A program made the translations under genes and the position numbers. Source: Acidiphilium sp. PA (GTDB lineage: Bacteria; Pseudomonadota; Alphaproteobacteria; Acetobacterales; Acetobacteraceae). From it: a DNA stretch of 64,000 nucleotides. Where the stretch lies: NCBI RefSeq assembly GCF_026191915.1, contig NZ_JAIMBY010000003.1, positions 124,001-188,000 of the forward strand, in the 5' to 3' direction. The notes beneath the pieces were generated by a model that had not been told where the DNA came from, ran no database searches, and saw only the letters and a list, made by a program, of their open reading frames with translations. Of this stretch, positions 14,574 through 59,244 are shown in pieces (the first letter of the stretch is position 1; each line of letters begins with the position of its first letter).

Positions 14574-14702
14574 CTGCTTTTTTGTAAAAAAGCAGCAAAA
14601 AACTTTCTTTAATGGGGGCACGGGCGTTGTCACGGCCACGGGCCCGGATGAGCAAAGTTTTTTTTGCTTCTTTTTTGTTCACAAAAAAGAAGACCTTCCT
14701 TC
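14574..14702. repeat. A/T-run palindromic repeat, full pair (reverse orientation)
   Basis: Two A/T-run palindromes flank a GC-rich centre. The left arm has TTTTTTGTAAAAAAGCAGC and the right arm GCTTCTTTTTTGTTCACAAAAAAGAAG. The centre (GGGGGCACGGGCGTTG and on) is the reverse complement of the centre in the copies at 34.5, 44.2 and 59.1 kb, so this copy is inverted relative to them. It sits between the first and second genes of the molybdenum hydroxylase operon. Confidence 0.8.
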
Positions 14703-22367: not shown

Positions 22368-22412
22368 CGTCCTTTTTTGCAAAAAAGAACCAAAAAACTC
22401 TTGGTAATCACG
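22368..22412 (+). repeat. A/T-run palindromic repeat, half copy
   Basis: CCTTTTTTGCAAAAAAGAAC is followed by CAAAAAACTCTTGGTAATC, the left-half unit of the family. It sits between the divergent purQ and hicA genes, that is, in a promoter region and not at a gene end. Confidence 0.75.
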
Positions 22413-27920: not shown

Positions 27921-28469
27921 TCACGTATCGAGGTCGGCGTGTTCGCGGAGGGTGCAGGTGCGGCGGGTGGCGAAGGTGCGTTTGGTATCGGCGAGGGCGT
28001 GGGGGGTGGACCAGCGGACGTCGGGGAAGATCGGGTCGGGTCGTTTCCCCGCGAGGCCGATGAGCCAGTAGCCGCCGTCTGTTGCGGGGCCGAACACGGC
28101 GTCGGCGCCGCGCAGGCGGCGGCAGGCGGTGCGCAGGTCATCGGCGGTGAGGGTGGGGATATCGCTGCCGATGATCAGCACGGGCCGGCGTTGGTAGTGC
28201 CGGAACAGGGCTTGCATGCGCGCACCGAGATCGCCGCGGCTTTGGCCGACGATGGTGAAGCCTCGTGCCGGCAGGCGTGCGTGGTGTGCGGGTTCGACCG
28301 CGATGACGCGTTCGATCGTCCGCATGGAGCGCAGCACCCGCATGGTGCGGTCCAGCATGGCGCGGGCGAGCCGCAGGGCCGCGCGCTCGCCGCGGGTGGC
28401 GGCGAGCCGCCGTTTCCCGACGCCGAGGCGCGGGATGCGGGTGAACAGCACGATTACGGGCCGGCTCAT
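27921..28469 (-). CDS. glycosyltransferase A family protein, TIGR04282 type (CofC-like)
   Basis: A 182-residue nucleotidyl/glycosyltransferase-fold protein (DUF2064): MSRPVIVLFTRIPRLGVGKRR, 'VLIIGSDIPTLTADDL' and 'FGPATDGGYWLIGLA'. This family was defined by linkage to radical SAM and selenodomain proteins; some members are now named arsenosugar biosynthesis transferases. It is the last gene of a five-gene operon and overlaps the upstream transferase by 4 bp. The role is probably transfer or activation of a sugar nucleotide. The real substrate is unknown, and no arsenite methyltransferase gene is in the window. Confidence 0.85.
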   Translation of the reverse strand: MSRPVIVLFTRIPRLGVGKRRLAATRGERAALRLARAMLDRTMRVLRSMRTIERVIAVEPAHHARLPARGFTIVGQSRGDLGARMQALFRHYQRRPVLIIGSDIPTLTADDLRTACRRLRGADAVFGPATDGGYWLIGLAGKRPDPIFPDVRWSTPHALADTKRTFATRRTCTLREHADLDT

Positions 28470-29146
28470 CGCCGGTACTGCGCCGCCAGAAGCACGGCGT
28501 CGGCGCCGGCGAGAAACCGTGCCAGCCGCGCGAGATTTCGCAGGCTGCGCCGCAGCCAGCCGTCGCGCGCATAGGCAGCGGCGTCGGTCAGGACGATCAT
28601 GTCGCAGGGTGCGAGCCGCGCGCGGCCGAGCCGGCGCGCGAGCGCGACGTCTTCCATCAGCGGCAGGGTCGGCATCCCGCCGATCGCGGTCAGCGTATCG
28701 CGGTGGATAAGCAGCGCCTGGTCGCCATAGGGCAGCCGGAGCAGCGCGCAGCGCAGCGCCGCACCGTATTCGATCAGCCGGGCGCGCGGATCGGCGCTCG
28801 CCAGGCGCAACCGCCCGTACCATGCCAGACTGGGCCGATTGCTGGCGATGCAACGGGACATCACGTCGTCCCAGCCGGGTTGCGGCAGCGCATCCGCATG
28901 CAGCAGCAGCAGCCACGCCGAGGGTGCGGCGGCGATGCCGCGGGAAACCTGCGCGCCCCGCCCGGCACCGCCGCTCACCACGATCGCGCCGTGCGATGCG
29001 GCGATCGCCACGGTGCCATCGGTGCTGCCGCCGTCGCTGATCACCACCGCGCCGACCAGGGCGGATCGTGCGAGCAGGGCCAGCAGCCCGGGCAGGGCAG
29101 GGGCCTCGTTCAGCGTCGGGATCACCACGGTCAGCGTCCCGCTCAT
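28466..29146 (-). CDS. glycosyltransferase family 2, TIGR04283 type
   Basis: 226 residues from the ATG at 29146, beginning MSGTLTVVIPTLNEAPALPG. GT2 motifs are 'VVISDGGSTDGTVAIAASHG', the 'LLLHADALPQPGW' DxD-like block and 'YGDQALLIHRDTLTAIGGMP'. It belongs to the MftF-like group linked to radical SAM/selenodomain gene sets. Its start overlaps the stop of the FAD oxidoreductase and its stop overlaps the TIGR04282 gene (4 bp each). Two small transferases together suggest successive glycosylation steps on one product. Confidence 0.87.
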   Translation of the reverse strand: MSGTLTVVIPTLNEAPALPGLLALLARSALVGAVVISDGGSTDGTVAIAASHGAIVVSGGAGRGAQVSRGIAAAPSAWLLLLHADALPQPGWDDVMSRCIASNRPSLAWYGRLRLASADPRARLIEYGAALRCALLRLPYGDQALLIHRDTLTAIGGMPTLPLMEDVALARRLGRARLAPCDMIVLTDAAAYARDGWLRRSLRNLARLARFLAGADAVLLAAQYRR

Positions 29147-31248
29147 CCGCGTCGCCAGGCGTGAAACCGTGCCAGCATCGCGAGCCCCCGCGCCGAGGCA
29201 TGGCGTTGCCGCCACATCCCCGCCACGGCGCGGATCGCTTCGGACCGGGTCGGGTAGGGGTAGATCACCCCGAGCAGTTTTTTCAGCCCGAGCTTGTGTT
29301 GCATCGCGATGGTAAAACCGGTCAGCATTTCGCCGGCCTGGGTACCCACGATGGTCGCACCCAGAATGCGGTCCGATCCTGGTTTGGTCAGCACCGTCAC
29401 GAAGCCGTCGGTATCGCCTTCGGCGATCGCGCGGTCGAGTTCGCTGAAGGCGTAGCGCGTCGTTTCGAACGCGATGCCGGCCGCGCGCGCCGCGCGCTGG
29501 TTCAGCCCGACCCGCGCGATTTCCGGGCTGGTATAGGTCACCGCCGGCACCGCCCGATAATCCGGCCGGAACCGCCAGAGCGGCGCGAACAACCCGTTCA
29601 GCGCGGCGAACCCGGCCTGGAATCCGGCGACATGGGTGAATTGATACGGCCCGGCGACATCGCCGCAGGCGAACACATTGGGCAGGATCGTCTGCAGCCA
29701 GGCGTCGGTCTCGATGGTTTTGGCCGGCGTCAGCGCGATGCCCAGCGCCTCCAGCCCGAACCCGGCGGTGCGCGGCACGCGACCCAGGGCGACCAGGATG
29801 CGGTCGAACCCGAGCCGCACCGGCGCATCGCCGTGCCTGGCTTCGAGCGAAAACCCCGCATCGTCGCGATGCACCGCGACGGCACGATGCCCGGTAAGCA
29901 CCGCGATACCATCCCGCCGCAGCGCAGCCGCCATCGCTGCTGAAACCTCATCATCCTCGCGCCCCAGCAGCCGGTCCGCCAGTTCCACCAGGGTCACCGT
30001 GCTGCCGAGCCGTGCGAAAGCCTGCGCCATTTCGCAGCCGATCGGCCCGCCGCCGAGCACCACCAGCCGCGCCGGCAACGTCTCGATATCCCACAGCGTT
30101 TCCGACGTCGCGAAGGGGCAATCCGCCAGTCCCGGCAGGTCGGGCAGCAGCGGTGCGGCACCGGTCGCGATCACGATCGCCCGCGTCGTCAGCGTTTCGC
30201 CATCAACCGAGACCGACCAGGGCGTTTCGATCGTCGCGTGGCCGCGTCGCACATCGACCCCCAGGGCCTGATAACGCGCCACCGAATCATGCGGCGCGAT
30301 CGCCGCGATCGCCGCGCGCACCGCACTGCGCGCCTCGTGGTAATCCATGCCGCTGCGCGCCGCGTGCAGCAGCGCTTTCGAGGGGACGCAGCCGGTATTC
30401 AGGCAATCGCCACCCATCGCCGCCTGTTCGATCAGCGTGACGCTCGCCTTCAGCGCGCTGGCGACATAGGCGGTGACCAACCCGGCCGAACCCGCGCCGA
30501 TCACCACCAGATTCCGATCGAACCGGCGCGGCCGCCGCCAGCCGGCATAGCGCTGGCGTGCCGCGAGCGCGTTGCGCAGCAGCGGGGCGGCAACCGGCAG
30601 CGCGGCCAGCAGCAGCAGCCCCGCGATCAGCCGTGGCGTCAGGATCGCCTGATGCGGCCCGAGGGTTGCGAGGCTGGCCCCCGCGTTGACGAAAATCACC
30701 GTCGCCGGCAGCATGCCGATCTGGCTCGCACCATAGAACCGCCGCAGGGGCAGGCTCGTCAGCCCGGCCAGCAGATTGATCGCGACGAATGGCACCGCCG
30801 GCACCAGCCGCAGCGAGATCAGGTAGAGCGCGCCATCCCGTGCGATCCCCCGTTCGATCCGCGCGAACAGGCCAGGAAACCACGCCAGCGCTGCATCGCG
30901 CAGCAGGAACCGCGCGCTCAGAAACGCGAGCGACGCGCCGATCGAGGCGGCGAACGAGACCAGAAGACTGCCCGCCACCACGCCGAACAGCGCCCCGGCC
31001 GCCAGCGTCAGCACGACCGCACCGGGCAGCGAGACCGCCGTCGCCACGACATAAAGGATGAAATAGAGCGCGAACGCCGCAACGCGGTGATGCGCCACCA
31101 CGTCTCCCAGTGCTGCGGCGTGCGCCTCCAGCCCCGCCAGTGTCAGCCGATGCCGCCCGAGCGCGATGACCGCCGCCACCAGCACGACCACCGAACCGAA
31201 TGCCGCCGGCCGCACCCAGAGAGCGCGCGGCGCCGCCGTGCCGCTCAT
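29143..31248 (-). CDS. fusion: VTT (SNARE-associated/DedA-like) membrane domain plus mercuric reductase-like FAD oxidoreductase
   Basis: 701 residues from the ATG at 31248. Residues ~15-230 are a multi-helix VTT domain (SLPGAVVLTLAAGALFGVVA, 'RLVPAVPFVAINLLAGLTSL'). Residues ~245-701 form a pyridine nucleotide-disulfide oxidoreductase: VVIGAGSAGLVTAYVAS, the redox pair GGDCLNTGCVPSK, NAD site 'VVLGGGPIGCEMAQAFARLG' and FAD site 'VFACGDVAGPYQFTH'. There is no N-terminal HMA domain and no C-terminal Cys pair as in MerA. The enzyme would be anchored in the inner membrane with the flavin domain in the cytoplasm. It overlaps both neighbours by 4 bp. Confidence 0.88.
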   Translation of the reverse strand: MSGTAAPRALWVRPAAFGSVVVLVAAVIALGRHRLTLAGLEAHAAALGDVVAHHRVAAFALYFILYVVATAVSLPGAVVLTLAAGALFGVVAGSLLVSFAASIGASLAFLSARFLLRDAALAWFPGLFARIERGIARDGALYLISLRLVPAVPFVAINLLAGLTSLPLRRFYGASQIGMLPATVIFVNAGASLATLGPHQAILTPRLIAGLLLLAALPVAAPLLRNALAARQRYAGWRRPRRFDRNLVVIGAGSAGLVTAYVASALKASVTLIEQAAMGGDCLNTGCVPSKALLHAARSGMDYHEARSAVRAAIAAIAPHDSVARYQALGVDVRRGHATIETPWSVSVDGETLTTRAIVIATGAAPLLPDLPGLADCPFATSETLWDIETLPARLVVLGGGPIGCEMAQAFARLGSTVTLVELADRLLGREDDEVSAAMAAALRRDGIAVLTGHRAVAVHRDDAGFSLEARHGDAPVRLGFDRILVALGRVPRTAGFGLEALGIALTPAKTIETDAWLQTILPNVFACGDVAGPYQFTHVAGFQAGFAALNGLFAPLWRFRPDYRAVPAVTYTSPEIARVGLNQRAARAAGIAFETTRYAFSELDRAIAEGDTDGFVTVLTKPGSDRILGATIVGTQAGEMLTGFTIAMQHKLGLKKLLGVIYPYPTRSEAIRAVAGMWRQRHASARGLAMLARFHAWRRG

Positions 31249-33008
31249 CGCGCGCCCATGCAGGAGGAGGCGCCGAACACGCAGAATTGCGCGCAATACG
31301 GATGATCGAGCGCAACCGGCCGCGCCGAAGCCGCCAGCGTCGATCCGAGATCGAACCGCGCCTCATAGGGCAGCAACGTGCATGCCACGATCGAGGCGCG
31401 AGACTCCCCCTTGCGCTGCACCACCATCCGCGCGGTCCGGCACATCGCATCCGCCCCGCGCGACCGCAGCGCCTGCCACGCCGCCGCCGCCACGCCGGCC
31501 ACGCCTGGCTCGGTCGTCAATTCCGCAAACAGCACCAGCGCCGCCGGATCGGTCGCATCGATCGCAAGTCCTTCGTCCGCGAACAGCCCGGCAAATCCCG
31601 CCCGAACCTCGGCCTCGCTCGCCAGCGCAGGATCGAACCGCGCCGCGACCGAGGGGGCGAATCCCGCCGCATCCAGCGCGCGCAGCCCGGCCAGCGCGGG
31701 CTGCCAGCTATCGGCGCCGCGCAACGCCTCATGACCGGACGGGGTGAAATGATCGAGCGAAACCCGCACCGCGAGCTTTGCCCCATGCGCCGCGCGCAGC
31801 GCCCGCAGCGCATCGAAATGCCGCTGCATCGGCCGCATCGCATTGGTCAGCACCAGCACGCGATACCCGCGGTCGAGCGCATCGCCCAGCATCGGCAGGA
31901 TCGCCGGGTTCATGAACGGTTCACCGCCGGTGAAGCCGATTTCGCGCAGGTCAGGCTGGAGCTCCCGCGCCTCGTCCAGCAAAGACGCCACGATTTCGGG
32001 CGCGATATAGGCGAGCCGGTCGTTGCGGGGGCTGCTCTCGATATAGCAGCCCCCGCATGCCAGATTGCACAGCGTGCCGGTGTTCACCCACAGCGTTTCC
32101 AGCCGCTCCAGCGCGACCACCGCATCGGCCGGCGGTGCGGCGGCTGCCGGCGCATCGCCGGGCACCGCGACCGTTGCGGGCGCCAGCGGCATCGCGGTCG
32201 CCGCCCGTTCCGCGAGCGGCAGGATATCGAAATTGGGCCACACCCCGGTCTCGATCGCGCCGGCGTAGTCCTCGGCCAGCCCCGCCGCGCGCATCGCGAA
32301 CGCCGCCGCACCGTGATCGAACGCGAGCGGCATCGGCGTAATACTGAACCCGTCGCCATGCGGCGTCAGCACCGAAAACCAGCCACGCGGGGTGCCATCG
32401 TTCGCCGGCAGCCCGACCGCACCGGCGTTGTGCCAGAGCTTGCCGCCCACCATCCGGGTGAAACCGAGGCCGCAATGCCCGGCGATCACGCCATCCACAC
32501 CGGTCAGCGCGATTTCATCGGCGAGCATCGCCTCAGGGTCCGAGCCGAACACGAAGCGGTTGATCCGGCTCGGTGCGCCATGCACGATCGCGAGACGCCG
32601 GCCGCCGATCGCAAGGTCGATCCGGCGCGGCAGCCCCGCCATCCAGCGTTTCGCGGCGGCATCGACGCGCGCATTGGCATAGCCGAACCAGCCGGCCGAA
32701 AGCCGATCGCACGCCGATCCGGCCGCGAAGCCGCAGCCGCAATCGGGCGCGTTCCGGGCGAGTTGCTCCTCGCAATTGCCCATCACGGTCGCGACCCGAT
32801 GGCCGCGGATCAGATCGACGCAGGCCTGCGGATCGGCGCCATAGGCCGCGATATCGCCGGTGCAGATCATCTGGTCCGGCGCGATGCCGAGCCGCCGCGC
32901 CTGATCGAACAGCGCCTCGGTCGCCTGAATATTGCTGTACGGGCCGCCGAAAATCAGCACCGGCCCGGTCGCTGTGATCAAGGGCACCGCCGCCTCGCCA
33001 TCAAACAT
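31245..33008 (-). CDS. fusion: degenerate metallophosphatase domain plus radical SAM domain
   Basis: 587 residues. Residues ~15-230 are calcineurin-like (GDIAAYGADP at 51-60, MGNCEE at 76-81, GHCGLG near 177, then LWHNAGAVG), but the first metal motif reads GGPYSN at 21-26 where active members have DxHSN. From ~305 a radical SAM domain follows, with CNLACGGC at 314-321 binding the [4Fe-4S] cluster and the SAM-contact block GFTGGEPFMNP at 358-368. The tail carries further Cys residues (YCAQFCVFGASSCMG). A linker rich in Ala/Pro joins the domains. It is the second gene of the operon. Substrate unknown. Confidence 0.85.
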   Translation of the reverse strand: MFDGEAAVPLITATGPVLIFGGPYSNIQATEALFDQARRLGIAPDQMICTGDIAAYGADPQACVDLIRGHRVATVMGNCEEQLARNAPDCGCGFAAGSACDRLSAGWFGYANARVDAAAKRWMAGLPRRIDLAIGGRRLAIVHGAPSRINRFVFGSDPEAMLADEIALTGVDGVIAGHCGLGFTRMVGGKLWHNAGAVGLPANDGTPRGWFSVLTPHGDGFSITPMPLAFDHGAAAFAMRAAGLAEDYAGAIETGVWPNFDILPLAERAATAMPLAPATVAVPGDAPAAAAPPADAVVALERLETLWVNTGTLCNLACGGCYIESSPRNDRLAYIAPEIVASLLDEARELQPDLREIGFTGGEPFMNPAILPMLGDALDRGYRVLVLTNAMRPMQRHFDALRALRAAHGAKLAVRVSLDHFTPSGHEALRGADSWQPALAGLRALDAAGFAPSVAARFDPALASEAEVRAGFAGLFADEGLAIDATDPAALVLFAELTTEPGVAGVAAAAWQALRSRGADAMCRTARMVVQRKGESRASIVACTLLPYEARFDLGSTLAASARPVALDHPYCAQFCVFGASSCMGAR

Positions 33009-34395
33009 AGCGCGCGGGCTCCGCCGCCAGTTGTTCGAGCGCGAGCCCCCGCGCCTCGATGCCGCCGCGCCGCCGCCACACCAGAATCGCCACCGCCCCC
33101 AGCGCCCAGAACCCCGCCAGCATCACCAGCGCGGCCGGCATGCTGCGCGCACCGACATAGCCGACCAGAAACGGCGACAGCGCAGCCCCGATCCGCCCGA
33201 CCGCGACCGACGCGCCGATGCCGGTCGCGCGCAGGCTGGTCGGGAACAATTCGGCAAAGGTCGGATAGGCGGCGATCCAACTGCCGGTCGCGAGCAGATT
33301 GACCAGTGCGAACCCCAGCATGATCGCGCCGGCACCCATGCCGGTGACGGCGGCAAAGCCGATCAGTGCCAGCGCGGTCGCCAGATAGAACCCGGCCACC
33401 GTCACGCCGCGGCCGAGCCGGTCGAGCAGCGATGCAGCGGCGAACCCGCCGATCAGCGCGCCCACGCTGCCTGCCAGGTAAAACACCGGCAGGCGCGCCG
33501 GCGGCAGATGCAGCGCCGGCAGCACCACGATCGGCAGAAACGCGAACAGCCCGTAGTAACCGGAAGCCTCGGCGAAATCGAGCACGGCGCCGAGCGCGAG
33601 CCGGCCGGGATAATGCCGCAGCAGCACGCGCAAGCCGTTCACCTCGCGCCGGACCCGTTGCACCACCGGCGCGGGCGCCAGGGGGGTCGAATCGGTCAGC
33701 CCCGCCGCGATCCGGGCGATGATCACCCGCGCATCTTCACGCCGCCCCGCCTCGATCAGCCAGCGCGGGCTTTCCGGCAGATGCCGGCGAAACCACGCCG
33801 CCGATAACGCAATGACGCCACCGAGCGCGAACACCACCCGCCAGCCGAGATCGGCCGGCAGCGCCGCCAGCACCAGCCAGGCCAGCAGGGCGGCGACGAA
33901 ACTGCCGACCGGCCAGAAATTCAGCACGATCGCCGAGGCCCGGCCGCGTGAACGGCTTGGCACCAGCTCCGCGATCGCCGCATTGATCGCCGCATACTCC
34001 GCAACGACCCCGATGCCCGCAATCAGCCGCAGCACCATCAACGCCGCCAGATCGGGCGCAAACGCGGTCGCCAGCGTCGCTGCGCCGTACAGCACCAGGC
34101 TGGCCAGAAACACCCGCCGCCGGCCGTACCGGTCCGACAGAATGCCGAACCCCGAAGCGCCAAGCATCAGCCCGGCGAACCAGGCCGCGAGGATGAAGGA
34201 CATGGCGTTGCTGCCGAGGTGGAAATGCTGGCGCAGCGCGCCCAGCACATTGCCGATCAACGTCACCTCGAACGCATCGAGCGCCCAGCCGAGGCCGAAC
34301 AGCAGGACGACGATGGTATGAAACCGGTTCCAGCGCAGATTGGCCAGAGTCTCGAGCAGGGTGGCATCGGTCGCGGCGGTGTCTGGTTCAGTCAT
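33001..34395 (-). CDS. MFS transporter
   Basis: A 464-residue, 12-helix major facilitator of the metabolite:H+ symporter or sugar-porter branch. It has 'LFGLGWALDAFEVTLIGNVLG', the loop motif SDRYGRRRVFLASLV and 'IGVVAEYAAINAAIAELVPSRSRGRA' (in parts). It heads the operon with the radical SAM fusion, overlapping it by 8 bp. It probably imports a precursor or exports the product of the pathway. The cytoplasmic N-terminus is short (about 25 residues). Confidence 0.87.
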   Translation of the reverse strand: MTEPDTAATDATLLETLANLRWNRFHTIVVLLFGLGWALDAFEVTLIGNVLGALRQHFHLGSNAMSFILAAWFAGLMLGASGFGILSDRYGRRRVFLASLVLYGAATLATAFAPDLAALMVLRLIAGIGVVAEYAAINAAIAELVPSRSRGRASAIVLNFWPVGSFVAALLAWLVLAALPADLGWRVVFALGGVIALSAAWFRRHLPESPRWLIEAGRREDARVIIARIAAGLTDSTPLAPAPVVQRVRREVNGLRVLLRHYPGRLALGAVLDFAEASGYYGLFAFLPIVVLPALHLPPARLPVFYLAGSVGALIGGFAAASLLDRLGRGVTVAGFYLATALALIGFAAVTGMGAGAIMLGFALVNLLATGSWIAAYPTFAELFPTSLRATGIGASVAVGRIGAALSPFLVGYVGARSMPAALVMLAGFWALGAVAILVWRRRGGIEARGLALEQLAAEPARYV

Positions 34396-34475
34396 TGGGG
34401 TCCATGGGTGATCGATATGGGGGAATACGGGCCAAGCGGGTCAATGGTTACAGCTGAGAGATCAGGGGAAGGGAA

Positions 34476-34605
34476 AGTCTTCTTTTTTGTGAACAAAAAA
34501 GAAGCAAAAAAACTTCGTTAATCTGGGCCCGTGGTGGTCCAAACGCCCGTGCCCCAGTGTAGGAAAGTTTTTTGCTTCTTTTTTTCAAAAAAGGAGCGCT
34601 TCTCT
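34476..34605. repeat. A/T-run palindromic repeat, full pair
   Basis: The left unit TCTTCTTTTTTGTGAACAAAAAAGAAG and the right unit GTTTTTTGCTTCTTTTTTTCAAAAAAGG flank a GC-rich centre (CTGGGCCCGTGGTGG, then AACGCCCGTGCCCC). It lies between the divergent MFS and FAD oxidoreductase genes, in the region that should hold their promoters. Confidence 0.85.
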
Positions 34606-34640
34606 TGCCTTGTCCCGAAACCCCGCCGAAACAACCCATC

Positions 34641-35798
34641 ATGCCCTCCGCCGCCCGCACCCTCGTCCTGATCGGCGGCGGCCACGCTCATGTGGCAGTG
34701 ATCCGCGCGTTTGCCATCAATCCGTTACCCGGCACCGCACTCACGGTGATCAGTCGCGAGACCGAAACGCCCTATTCGGGCATGCTGCCGGGCCTGATCG
34801 CCGGGTATTACACCCATGCCGAAGCGCATATCGATGTCGCAGCACTTTGCCGCCGTGCCGGCGCGCGTTTCATTCACGACGAAGCGGCCGGGCTCGATCT
34901 CGGGGGGCGGCGCGTGCTGTGCCGTGCGGGCCCGCCGGTGCCGTACGATTGCCTGTCGATCGATATCGGCTCCATCCCGTCGCCGCAGGCAGCGGGCATC
35001 GGGGTCAAGCCGATCCCAGCGTTTCTTGTCCATTGGCAGGCGCTGTGCGCCCGCGCGCTGGCCACGCCGGGGCGATTGCGCATCGGCGTCGTCGGCGCGG
35101 GGGCCGGCGGGGTCGAACTGGTGCTCGCGCTGCAAGTCCGGCTCGGAGACTTGCTGCGCGCCGCCGGCCGGCCGCACGATGCGCCGTGTTTCAGCCTGTT
35201 CGGCCAGGCCACCACCATACTGCCCGGTTTTGCCGGGTCGGCGCGCCGCCGGCTGGAACGTATCCTGCGCCGGCGCGGCATCGGCGTGTTCACCGGCCAG
35301 GCAATCGGCGCCACGGCGGACGGCGCGCTGCAAGGCGCGGACGGCACGCGGTTCGATCTCGATGATGTGATCTGGGCAACCGGCGGTGCACCCGCGCCCT
35401 GGCTGGTCCAAACGGGGCTTGCGCTCGATTCACGGGGCTTCATCGCGGTGCACGACACGCTGCAATCGATCTCGCATCCGGCCGTGTTCGCGGCGGGTGA
35501 CATTGCCAGCATCATCGGGCGCGCGGTGCCGAAATCCGGTGTCCATGCGGTCCGGCAGGGCAAGCCGCTCGCGGCCAATCTGCGCCGCGCGCTGTGCGGC
35601 GAGGCGCTGGCGCCGTTCCAGCCGCAGCGCCACGCCCTTGCGCTGATCGGCACCGGCGATGGCCAGGCGGTCGCCGTGAAAGGCGCCTGGAGTGCCGAAG
35701 GGCGCTGGGTCTGGCTCTGGAAAGACCGGATCGACCGGCGTTTCATGCGCCGCTACACCAATGTGCCGGAGCATGCCCGCCCCGATCATCAACGCTGA
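34641..35798 (+). CDS. FAD-dependent oxidoreductase, SelD N-terminal-like (TIGR03169)
   Basis: 385 residues from the ATG at 34641. It starts RTLVLIGGGHAHVAVIRAFA, a dinucleotide-binding motif. It continues with SRETETPYSGMLPGLIAGYY and 'GVVGAGAGGVELVLALQ', and ends its FAD domain with 'HPAVFAAGDIASI'. This matches the NADH dehydrogenase-like flavoprotein that elsewhere is fused to the N-terminus of selenophosphate synthase SelD. Here it stands alone, divergent from the radical SAM operon, which supports a shared function. It overlaps the convergent fliM gene by 10 bp. Confidence 0.85.
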   Translation: MPSAARTLVLIGGGHAHVAVIRAFAINPLPGTALTVISRETETPYSGMLPGLIAGYYTHAEAHIDVAALCRRAGARFIHDEAAGLDLGGRRVLCRAGPPVPYDCLSIDIGSIPSPQAAGIGVKPIPAFLVHWQALCARALATPGRLRIGVVGAGAGGVELVLALQVRLGDLLRAAGRPHDAPCFSLFGQATTILPGFAGSARRRLERILRRRGIGVFTGQAIGATADGALQGADGTRFDLDDVIWATGGAPAPWLVQTGLALDSRGFIAVHDTLQSISHPAVFAAGDIASIIGRAVPKSGVHAVRQGKPLAANLRRALCGEALAPFQPQRHALALIGTGDGQAVAVKGAWSAEGRWVWLWKDRIDRRFMRRYTNVPEHARPDHQR

Positions 35799-44215: not shown

Positions 44216-44343
44216 GAAGCACTTCTTTTTTTGCAAAAAAAGAAGCAAAAAAACTCCTTTTAATTTGGGCCTGTGCCGGTTTCAGCGCCCGTGCCTCAGA
44301 GTCAAAAAGTTTTTTGCTTCTTTTTTACAAAAAAGAAGCCTTC
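44216..44343. repeat. A/T-run palindromic repeat, full pair between convergent genes
   Basis: Left unit CTTCTTTTTTTGCAAAAAAAGAAG, centre TTGGGCCTGTGCCGG then CAGCGCCCGTGCCTC, right unit GCTTCTTTTTTACAAAAAAGAAGC. It fills the whole gap between the ends of cydC and emrB, where it could terminate both transcripts. Confidence 0.88.
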
Positions 44344-59126: not shown

Positions 59127-59244
59127 TCTTGCGAACAAAAAAGAACCAGAAAAACTTCACCAATCCGAGCCCGTGCCGCCTCAAACACCCGTGCCCCCGA
59201 GTCAAAAAGTTTTTTGCTTCTTTTTTCCAAAAAAGAAGCCTTCC
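59127..59244. repeat. A/T-run palindromic repeat, full pair
   Basis: Left unit CTTTCTTGCGAACAAAAAAGAAC, centre CCGAGCCCGTGCCGC then ACACCCGTGCCCCCGAG, right unit GTTTTTTGCTTCTTTTTTCC then AAAAAAGAAGC. It lies between the diguanylate cyclase gene and purB on the same strand. Confidence 0.87.

Follow-up and report, generated by a model that had tools for sequence, protein, structure and literature searches.

A candidate arsenosugar-type operon with a fused radical SAM enzyme in Acidiphilium sp. PA

Acidiphilium sp. PA harbors, in a 64,000-nucleotide stretch of contig NZ_JAIMBY010000003.1 (the window, on which all coordinates are numbered), six genes at positions 27921-35798 that are present as open frames with the expected domains. 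Five of them form an operon on the minus strand: first a major facilitator superfamily (MFS) transporter, then a fusion of a metallophosphatase-fold domain to a radical S-adenosylmethionine (SAM) domain, a VTT-flavin adenine dinucleotide (FAD) oxidoreductase, a TIGR04283-like glycosyltransferase and a TIGR04282 protein. The sixth, a TIGR03169 flavoprotein, is divergent. Judged from sequence and gene context, the operon probably (about two chances in three) encodes a variant arsenosugar-type pathway, which would employ the same partners as the enzyme ArsS but a different, fused radical SAM enzyme. The original prediction for this DNA had proposed a glycosylated small molecule, which is still the best reading of the product; that the product may be new, as it also suggested, is possible, but an arsenosugar-type product is likelier.

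Gene context of the radical SAM family

Of 385 alphaproteobacterial genomes sampled evenly across the class, 115 (~30%) encode the family of the window's radical SAM protein, among them representatives of Roseomonas, Belnapia, Reyranella, Hyphomicrobium, Methylobacterium, Roseovarius, Phaeobacter and Roseobacter. TIGR04283 is present in 109 of these 115 genomes compared with 37 of the 270 others (odds ratio 114), and in a panel of 60 relatives strong TIGR04283 matches accompany the family in 24/24 genomes. The predicted co-occurrence beyond close relatives is thus borne out. The two genes often lie at unrelated places (at least 17 pairs are within ~7 kb), so that the link appears to be functional rather than positional. 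TIGR04282 usually stands beside TIGR04283. The methyltransferase ArsM is found in 34 of the 115 genomes, as opposed to 9 of the 270 (p = 1.6e-12). ArsS occurs in 2 of the 385, both of which lack the window's radical SAM family.

By gene context, arsenic is the best-supported substrate element of the family, and the indications for it are good. At six loci from unrelated families (G202, G151, G279, G354, L207 and L224) the radical SAM gene adjoins a gene for an ArsM-type methyltransferase. The order is radical SAM-ArsM-VTT-FAD, then TIGR04282-TIGR04283, in G202, and radical SAM-TIGR04282-TIGR04283-MTAP-ArsM in G354, where MTAP denotes methylthioadenosine (MTA) phosphorylase. In Hyphomicrobium (L207) one run comprises radical SAM-PstS-Pst permeases-PstB-ArsM-ArsC, and in L225 the radical SAM gene adjoins ACR3-ArsJ-GAPDH-ArsR/ArsC-like-ArsM, with ACR3, ArsJ, its GAPDH and ArsM all over the cut-offs of their models. 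The ArsM proteins of Acinetobacter and L207 match a solved algal ArsM (E 1e-99 and 3e-108), and conserved cysteines are kept across the aligned ArsM set. MTAP adjoins the radical SAM gene, or is ~1 gene away, in G005, G221, G364, L166 and L187; in G005 the radical SAM gene lies between VTT-FAD and MTAP.

Genuine arsS clusters have the same composition. On a plasmid of Acinetobacter portensis the order is arsS-VTT/FAD-DUF547-TIGR04283-TIGR04282-ArsM-Pit-MTAP, and the VTT-FAD protein encoded next to arsS is 46% identical to that of the window. G049 and G182 combine ArsS with TIGR04282, VTT-FAD, MTAP, the same degenerate metallophosphatase and PhnDEC. MTAP, TIGR04282, TIGR04283, VTT-FAD and ArsM are therefore partners common to both families, with ArsS in the position of the radical SAM protein, which argues for one enzyme replacing another.

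Several candidates were tried and rejected. The genes surrounding many TIGR04283 loci (c6/c8-c11: another radical SAM protein, MoaB-like, SLT, ETF-QO and RNase HII) look like mere neighbours rather than pathway parts. A second Roseomonas radical SAM protein (TrsS/Tes-like) is no obligate partner, being found in 1 of 60 relatives only, and a match on a Marinobacter plasmid was set aside as it has no pathway context. Separately, ArsM-like frames with one in-frame stop, mostly TGA, occur in G128, G229, G231, G243, G316, G322 and G348, with one TAG copy and one TGA copy in G231. These frames hint at ArsM variants in Alphaproteobacteria that are selenoproteins.

The fusion of a Car1-like and an ArsS-like domain

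The fusion protein (587 aa; 31245..33008, minus strand) has an AlphaFold model with a mean predicted local distance difference test score of 87.8. Full-length fusions occur in ~11 relatives and in L196, L198, L201 and L214. The latter four are metagenome-assembled genomes labelled Rhodospirillales and Hyphomicrobiales.

The radical SAM domain covers residues ~300-587 (31245..32111, minus). Its CxxxCxxC [4Fe-4S]/SAM motif, read from the sequence as Cys314/318/321 (32046..32069, minus), is invariant in 17 relatives, and a constellation of five cysteines (Cys523, 543, 572, 576 and 583) lies toward the C-terminus. In profile comparison the protein is a remote full-length homologue of ArsS: the two share the CxxxCxxC core and a similar length, and hhalign aligns the family profiles over 262 columns, the C-terminal Cys region among them (98.1% probability, E 1e-13). 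The MC..C..HC..C..SC constellation is present in both families and spanned by this alignment, although the C-terminal alignment is weak. Identity by BLAST is ~21-27% and limited to the core. By score and domain content the protein is not ArsS. It reaches 62.8 bits with the ArsS model TIGR04167 (64.5 in the genome search; cut-off 300), and DUF3641, which matches two ArsS proteins with 192 and 185 bits, has no match in four members of the window's family. The original claim that the protein is no known ArsS or selenodomain enzyme is upheld by these values. ArsS is an arsenic-adenosylating enzyme (Cheng et al., 2021, cited in PMC12159101). An ArsS-type reaction for the radical SAM domain is supported, though not proven, because the domain is homologous to ArsS and takes its place among the partners.

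Other families are less suitable as models. The uncharacterized Rv1681 family (NF049973) gives the best NCBIfam score for the core, but stays below that model's cut-off of 380, and it was rejected as a full-length model since the match stops after the core. Rv1681 proteins resemble the window protein in having a PhnD-like protein and an MFS protein 40% identical to that of the window among their neighbours; they differ in lacking the C-terminal Cys constellation. A literature search found no function for Rv1681. HpnH is a weak family match (20.7 bits). A small tree of the families has few supported branches and very long ends and does not resolve their order. ArsS is missing among the solved-structure matches, an absence that is uninformative.

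The N-terminal domain comprises residues ~14-257 (32238..32969, minus). Its fold matches the Ap4A hydrolase SapH (3qfm, Z 26.5, 244 residues, 2.8 A), and 16 members of the family were aligned with 4 canonical homologues. The phosphatase ligands DxH and the last His of GHxH are lost in 16/16 members, while GD and GN are kept in all 16 and HG and GH in nearly all. Additional conserved cysteines are found in most members. A Cys-Gly-Cys motif (Cys90-Gly-Cys92 in the window protein; 32733..32741, minus) is conserved in 16/16, and it aligns with a CxC at exactly positions 74 and 76 of a Hymenobacter homologue encoded in an ars operon. Among the nearest canonical homologues examined on plasmids, 2 of 4 (Hymenobacter and Rubrobacter) belong to ars operons; those of Pannonibacter and Haloarcula lie outside ars operons and lack Cys-x-Cys. 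A 2025 paper (PMC12124457) likens an ars-operon metallophosphoesterase to Car1, a reported arsenate reductase with essential Cys74 and Cys76. Because the metal ligands are lost and the Cys-x-Cys aligns, through this homologue, with the Cys74/Cys76 pair of Car1, the N-terminal domain is better read as reductase-type than as a phosphatase, and the earlier label "metallophosphatase" is misleading. The domain shares with Car1 of Rufibacter tibetensis the metallophosphoesterase fold, homologues in arsenic operons and the aligned Cys-x-Cys. In contrast to Car1, it has lost DxH and the last metal His, gained cysteines and become fused to a radical SAM domain.

Proposed pathway and alternatives

As the original prediction had reported for the window, ArsM, ArsS and SelD are absent, and a search of the whole genome finds none either. 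For ArsM, nothing exceeds 47.7 bits with NF008823, and a search with a close ArsM homologue also finds none; the best ArsS match is the fusion itself; and the four AIRS-domain matches in the genome are PurL (two copies), PurM and ThiL. With a draft assembly, though one scored 100% complete, these absences are probable rather than certain. Since the three proteins are missing from the host, the operon would depend on methylated arsenic from outside, unless its product is unlike known arsenosugars. Processing of dimethylarsenate (DMA) from the medium has been described in the free-living alphaproteobacterium Pelagibacter HTCC7211 (PMC6426599).

In the proposed pathway, a pentavalent arsenical, be it imported dimethyl- or monomethylarsenate or arsenate, would be reduced to the trivalent state by the Cys-x-Cys domain, for which the FAD proteins would supply electrons. 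The radical SAM domain of the fusion would then add the 5'-deoxyadenosyl group of SAM to trivalent arsenic, as ArsS does. An MTA phosphorylase, encoded outside the operon ~100 kb away on the same contig (TIGR01694, 308.6 bits), may strip the adenine to give arsenoribose-1-phosphate. The TIGR04282 protein could activate this compound as a nucleotide sugar, from which the TIGR04283-like protein would pass the sugar on to an acceptor, for example glycerol or a lipid. Import of the arsenical or export of the product may fall to the MFS protein. Radical adenosylation followed by nucleoside phosphorolysis is also the logic of the HpnH/HpnG adenosylhopane pathway. The substrate there, however, is a hydrocarbon.

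Several observations weigh against the arsenosugar-type pathway. The fusion fails the ArsS family score and has no DUF3641; for its radical SAM core the Rv1681 family gives the higher score (93.8 bits); and confidence is low in the C-terminal stretch of the match to ArsS, some cysteines being placed differently in a sequence alignment. The comparison with Car1 runs through a homologue. ArsM is missing from the host genome and was not detected in 81 of the 115 genomes with the radical SAM family, and the co-occurrence tests ignore shared ancestry. Finally, PhnD-like transporters and bufferin cassettes near some relatives could mean phosphonate or metal stress.

The strongest alternative, of low probability, is arsenic detoxification without a sugar, in which the fusion would reduce arsenicals, the radical SAM domain would make another organoarsenical (ArsL-like, carrying a 3-amino-3-carboxypropyl group) and the MFS protein would export it. 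ArsL is a precedent for a radical SAM enzyme that links a different SAM-derived group to arsenic, and the ArsJ, ACR3 and ArsC genes close to the radical SAM gene of L225 and L207 would suit such a function. However, TIGR04283 accompanies the family almost everywhere, with TIGR04282 usually next to it, and the adjacency of MTAP fits a 5'-deoxyadenosyl product. The ArsL/ArsM arsinothricin pathway, compared here by description, resembles the arsenosugar-type pathway in that a radical SAM enzyme encoded in an arsenic operon forms a C-As bond. It differs in being a three-gene arsQML cluster without glycosyl transfer genes.

An improbable explanation is a phosphonate, phosphite or phosphate-stress pathway, with phosphorus as the element and PhnDEC-like and Pst transporters importing the substrate. 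The Roseomonas group and Rhabdaerophilum do have PhnD-PhnE-PhnC-metallophosphoesterase genes next to the radical SAM gene. Yet the same transporter and metallophosphoesterase set adjoins genuine arsS in G049 and G182, ArsM and ArsC lie within the L207 run, and phosphate transporters let arsenate in, according to a review. Slightly less credible again is a selenium pathway, in which the flavoprotein and transferases would handle selenium species and the radical SAM enzyme would make a selenosugar. TIGR03169 takes its name from a fusion to SelD, and relatives have a PhnD-like neighbour whose match to a putative selenate binding protein is weak (82.7 bits against a cut-off of 250). SelD-dependent selenium use was rejected, however, as the genome lacks SelD, and the metallophosphatase relatives sit in ars operons. 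The "selenodomain" label of the original prediction also leads away from the evidence, because the radical SAM relatives adjoin arsM, arsC, ACR3, arsJ and Pst genes and not selenium genes. Least probable is peptide maturation (a ribosomally synthesized and post-translationally modified peptide) or a copper/thiol-stress function tied to bufferin cassettes. In two relatives and Burkholderia glumae the cluster is flanked by MNIO-DUF2063-DoxX and sigma/NrsF cassettes, and the best solved radical SAM relatives include peptide maturases. However, no precursor-peptide gene is apparent in the operon (no search of short open reading frames was made), bufferin cassettes bring enzymes of their own and are not seen at most radical SAM loci, and glycosyl and nucleotidyl transferases are not expected partners here.

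For the arsenosugar-type pathway, a bolder version can be entertained tentatively. The family may constitute a second, unrecognized group of radical SAM enzymes that adenosylate arsenic, in this operon equipped with an arsenical reductase of its own. It would act without ArsM on imported methylarsenicals or directly on inorganic As(III) and yield a new organoarsenical glycoside in many Alphaproteobacteria, among them the Roseobacter group and lineages with small genomes (about 1.2-1.3 Mb). Reports of arsenosugars in bacteria come from cyanobacteria and link these compounds to ArsS. If the chemistry is the same, ~30% of the sampled alphaproteobacterial genomes would hold an overlooked organoarsenic enzyme annotated only as "radical SAM protein". 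The fusion itself suggests that As(V) reduction is coupled to radical C-As bond formation, and the operon supplies candidates for the unknown steps after ArsS, namely phosphorolysis, activation and transfer.

Operon layout and dispersed elements

The overlaps of 4-8 bp originally noted between the five minus-strand genes are 8 bp (MFS/fusion), 4 bp (fusion/VTT-FAD), 4 bp (VTT-FAD/TIGR04283-like) and 4 bp (TIGR04283-like/TIGR04282), using refined starts read by hand off the list of open reading frames and the upstream sequence. About ten genomes from this genus or family keep the gene order, and their proteins are 65-95% identical over the whole length, which argues against a chance arrangement of frames. 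Neither Rfam elements nor sigma-70-like promoters were found in the operon region.

The first gene encodes an aromatic acid/H+ symport-like MFS transporter (33001..34395, minus; Pfam MFS_1), which scores 199 bits with NCBIfam TIGR00895, under that model's cut-off. It is 50% identical to the MFS protein of a Burkholderia glumae TIGR03169-TIGR04282-TIGR04283-MTAP cluster and 40% identical to that of a Mycolicibacterium Rv1680/Rv1681-type cluster, a recurrence that supports transport of a common substrate or product. The Mycolicibacterium vanbaalenii plasmid (L105) carries, besides the Rv1680/Rv1681-type genes and the related MFS, deiodinase-like and acyl-CoA dehydrogenase genes, a TrsS-like radical SAM gene and an ArsM-like/DVU1556 methyltransferase gene; these are possibly a related actinobacterial element pathway.

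The VTT-FAD protein (29143..31248, minus) fuses a VTT membrane domain to a MerA/lipoamide-dehydrogenase-like FAD disulfide reductase, in which GGDCLNTGCVPSK is present and the C-terminal vicinal Cys are absent. Of the two transferases, called TIGR04283-type and TIGR04282-type in the original prediction, one passes the cut-off of its family. The TIGR04282 protein (27921..28469, minus), with a CofC/MobA-like nucleotidyltransferase fold and 3cgx as its sole solved relative, exceeds the cut-off (146.9 versus 134 bits). The GT2 glycosyltransferase (28466..29146, minus) comes near with 167.8 bits; under the cut-off of 182, it counts as closely related to TIGR04283 but not as a curated member. The divergent gene (34641..35798, plus), described earlier as a SelD-N-terminal-like flavoprotein, is confirmed as TIGR03169 (412.6 bits, cut-off 310). 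This family also adjoins TIGR04282/TIGR04283 in L102, L038 and L064, and the radical SAM gene in Methylobacterium crusticola (L191). Bufferin-type cassettes (MNIO, DUF2063, DoxX, sigma factor/NrsF and CcdA/thioredoxin) flank transferase and VTT-FAD genes in the relatives L049 and L050 and on Burkholderia glumae plasmids (L102).

A dispersed element, consisting of two opposed TTTTTGCTTCTTTTT hairpins ~74 bp apart, has one copy between the MFS and TIGR03169 genes. Pairs occur at window positions 14587-14675, 34496-34583, 44237-44325 and 59138-59225, and single copies at 22382, 24329, 60679 and 61827. With 13 matches in the window versus 0.02 expected, the hairpin element is a candidate repetitive extragenic palindromic (REP)-like element or pair of terminators.

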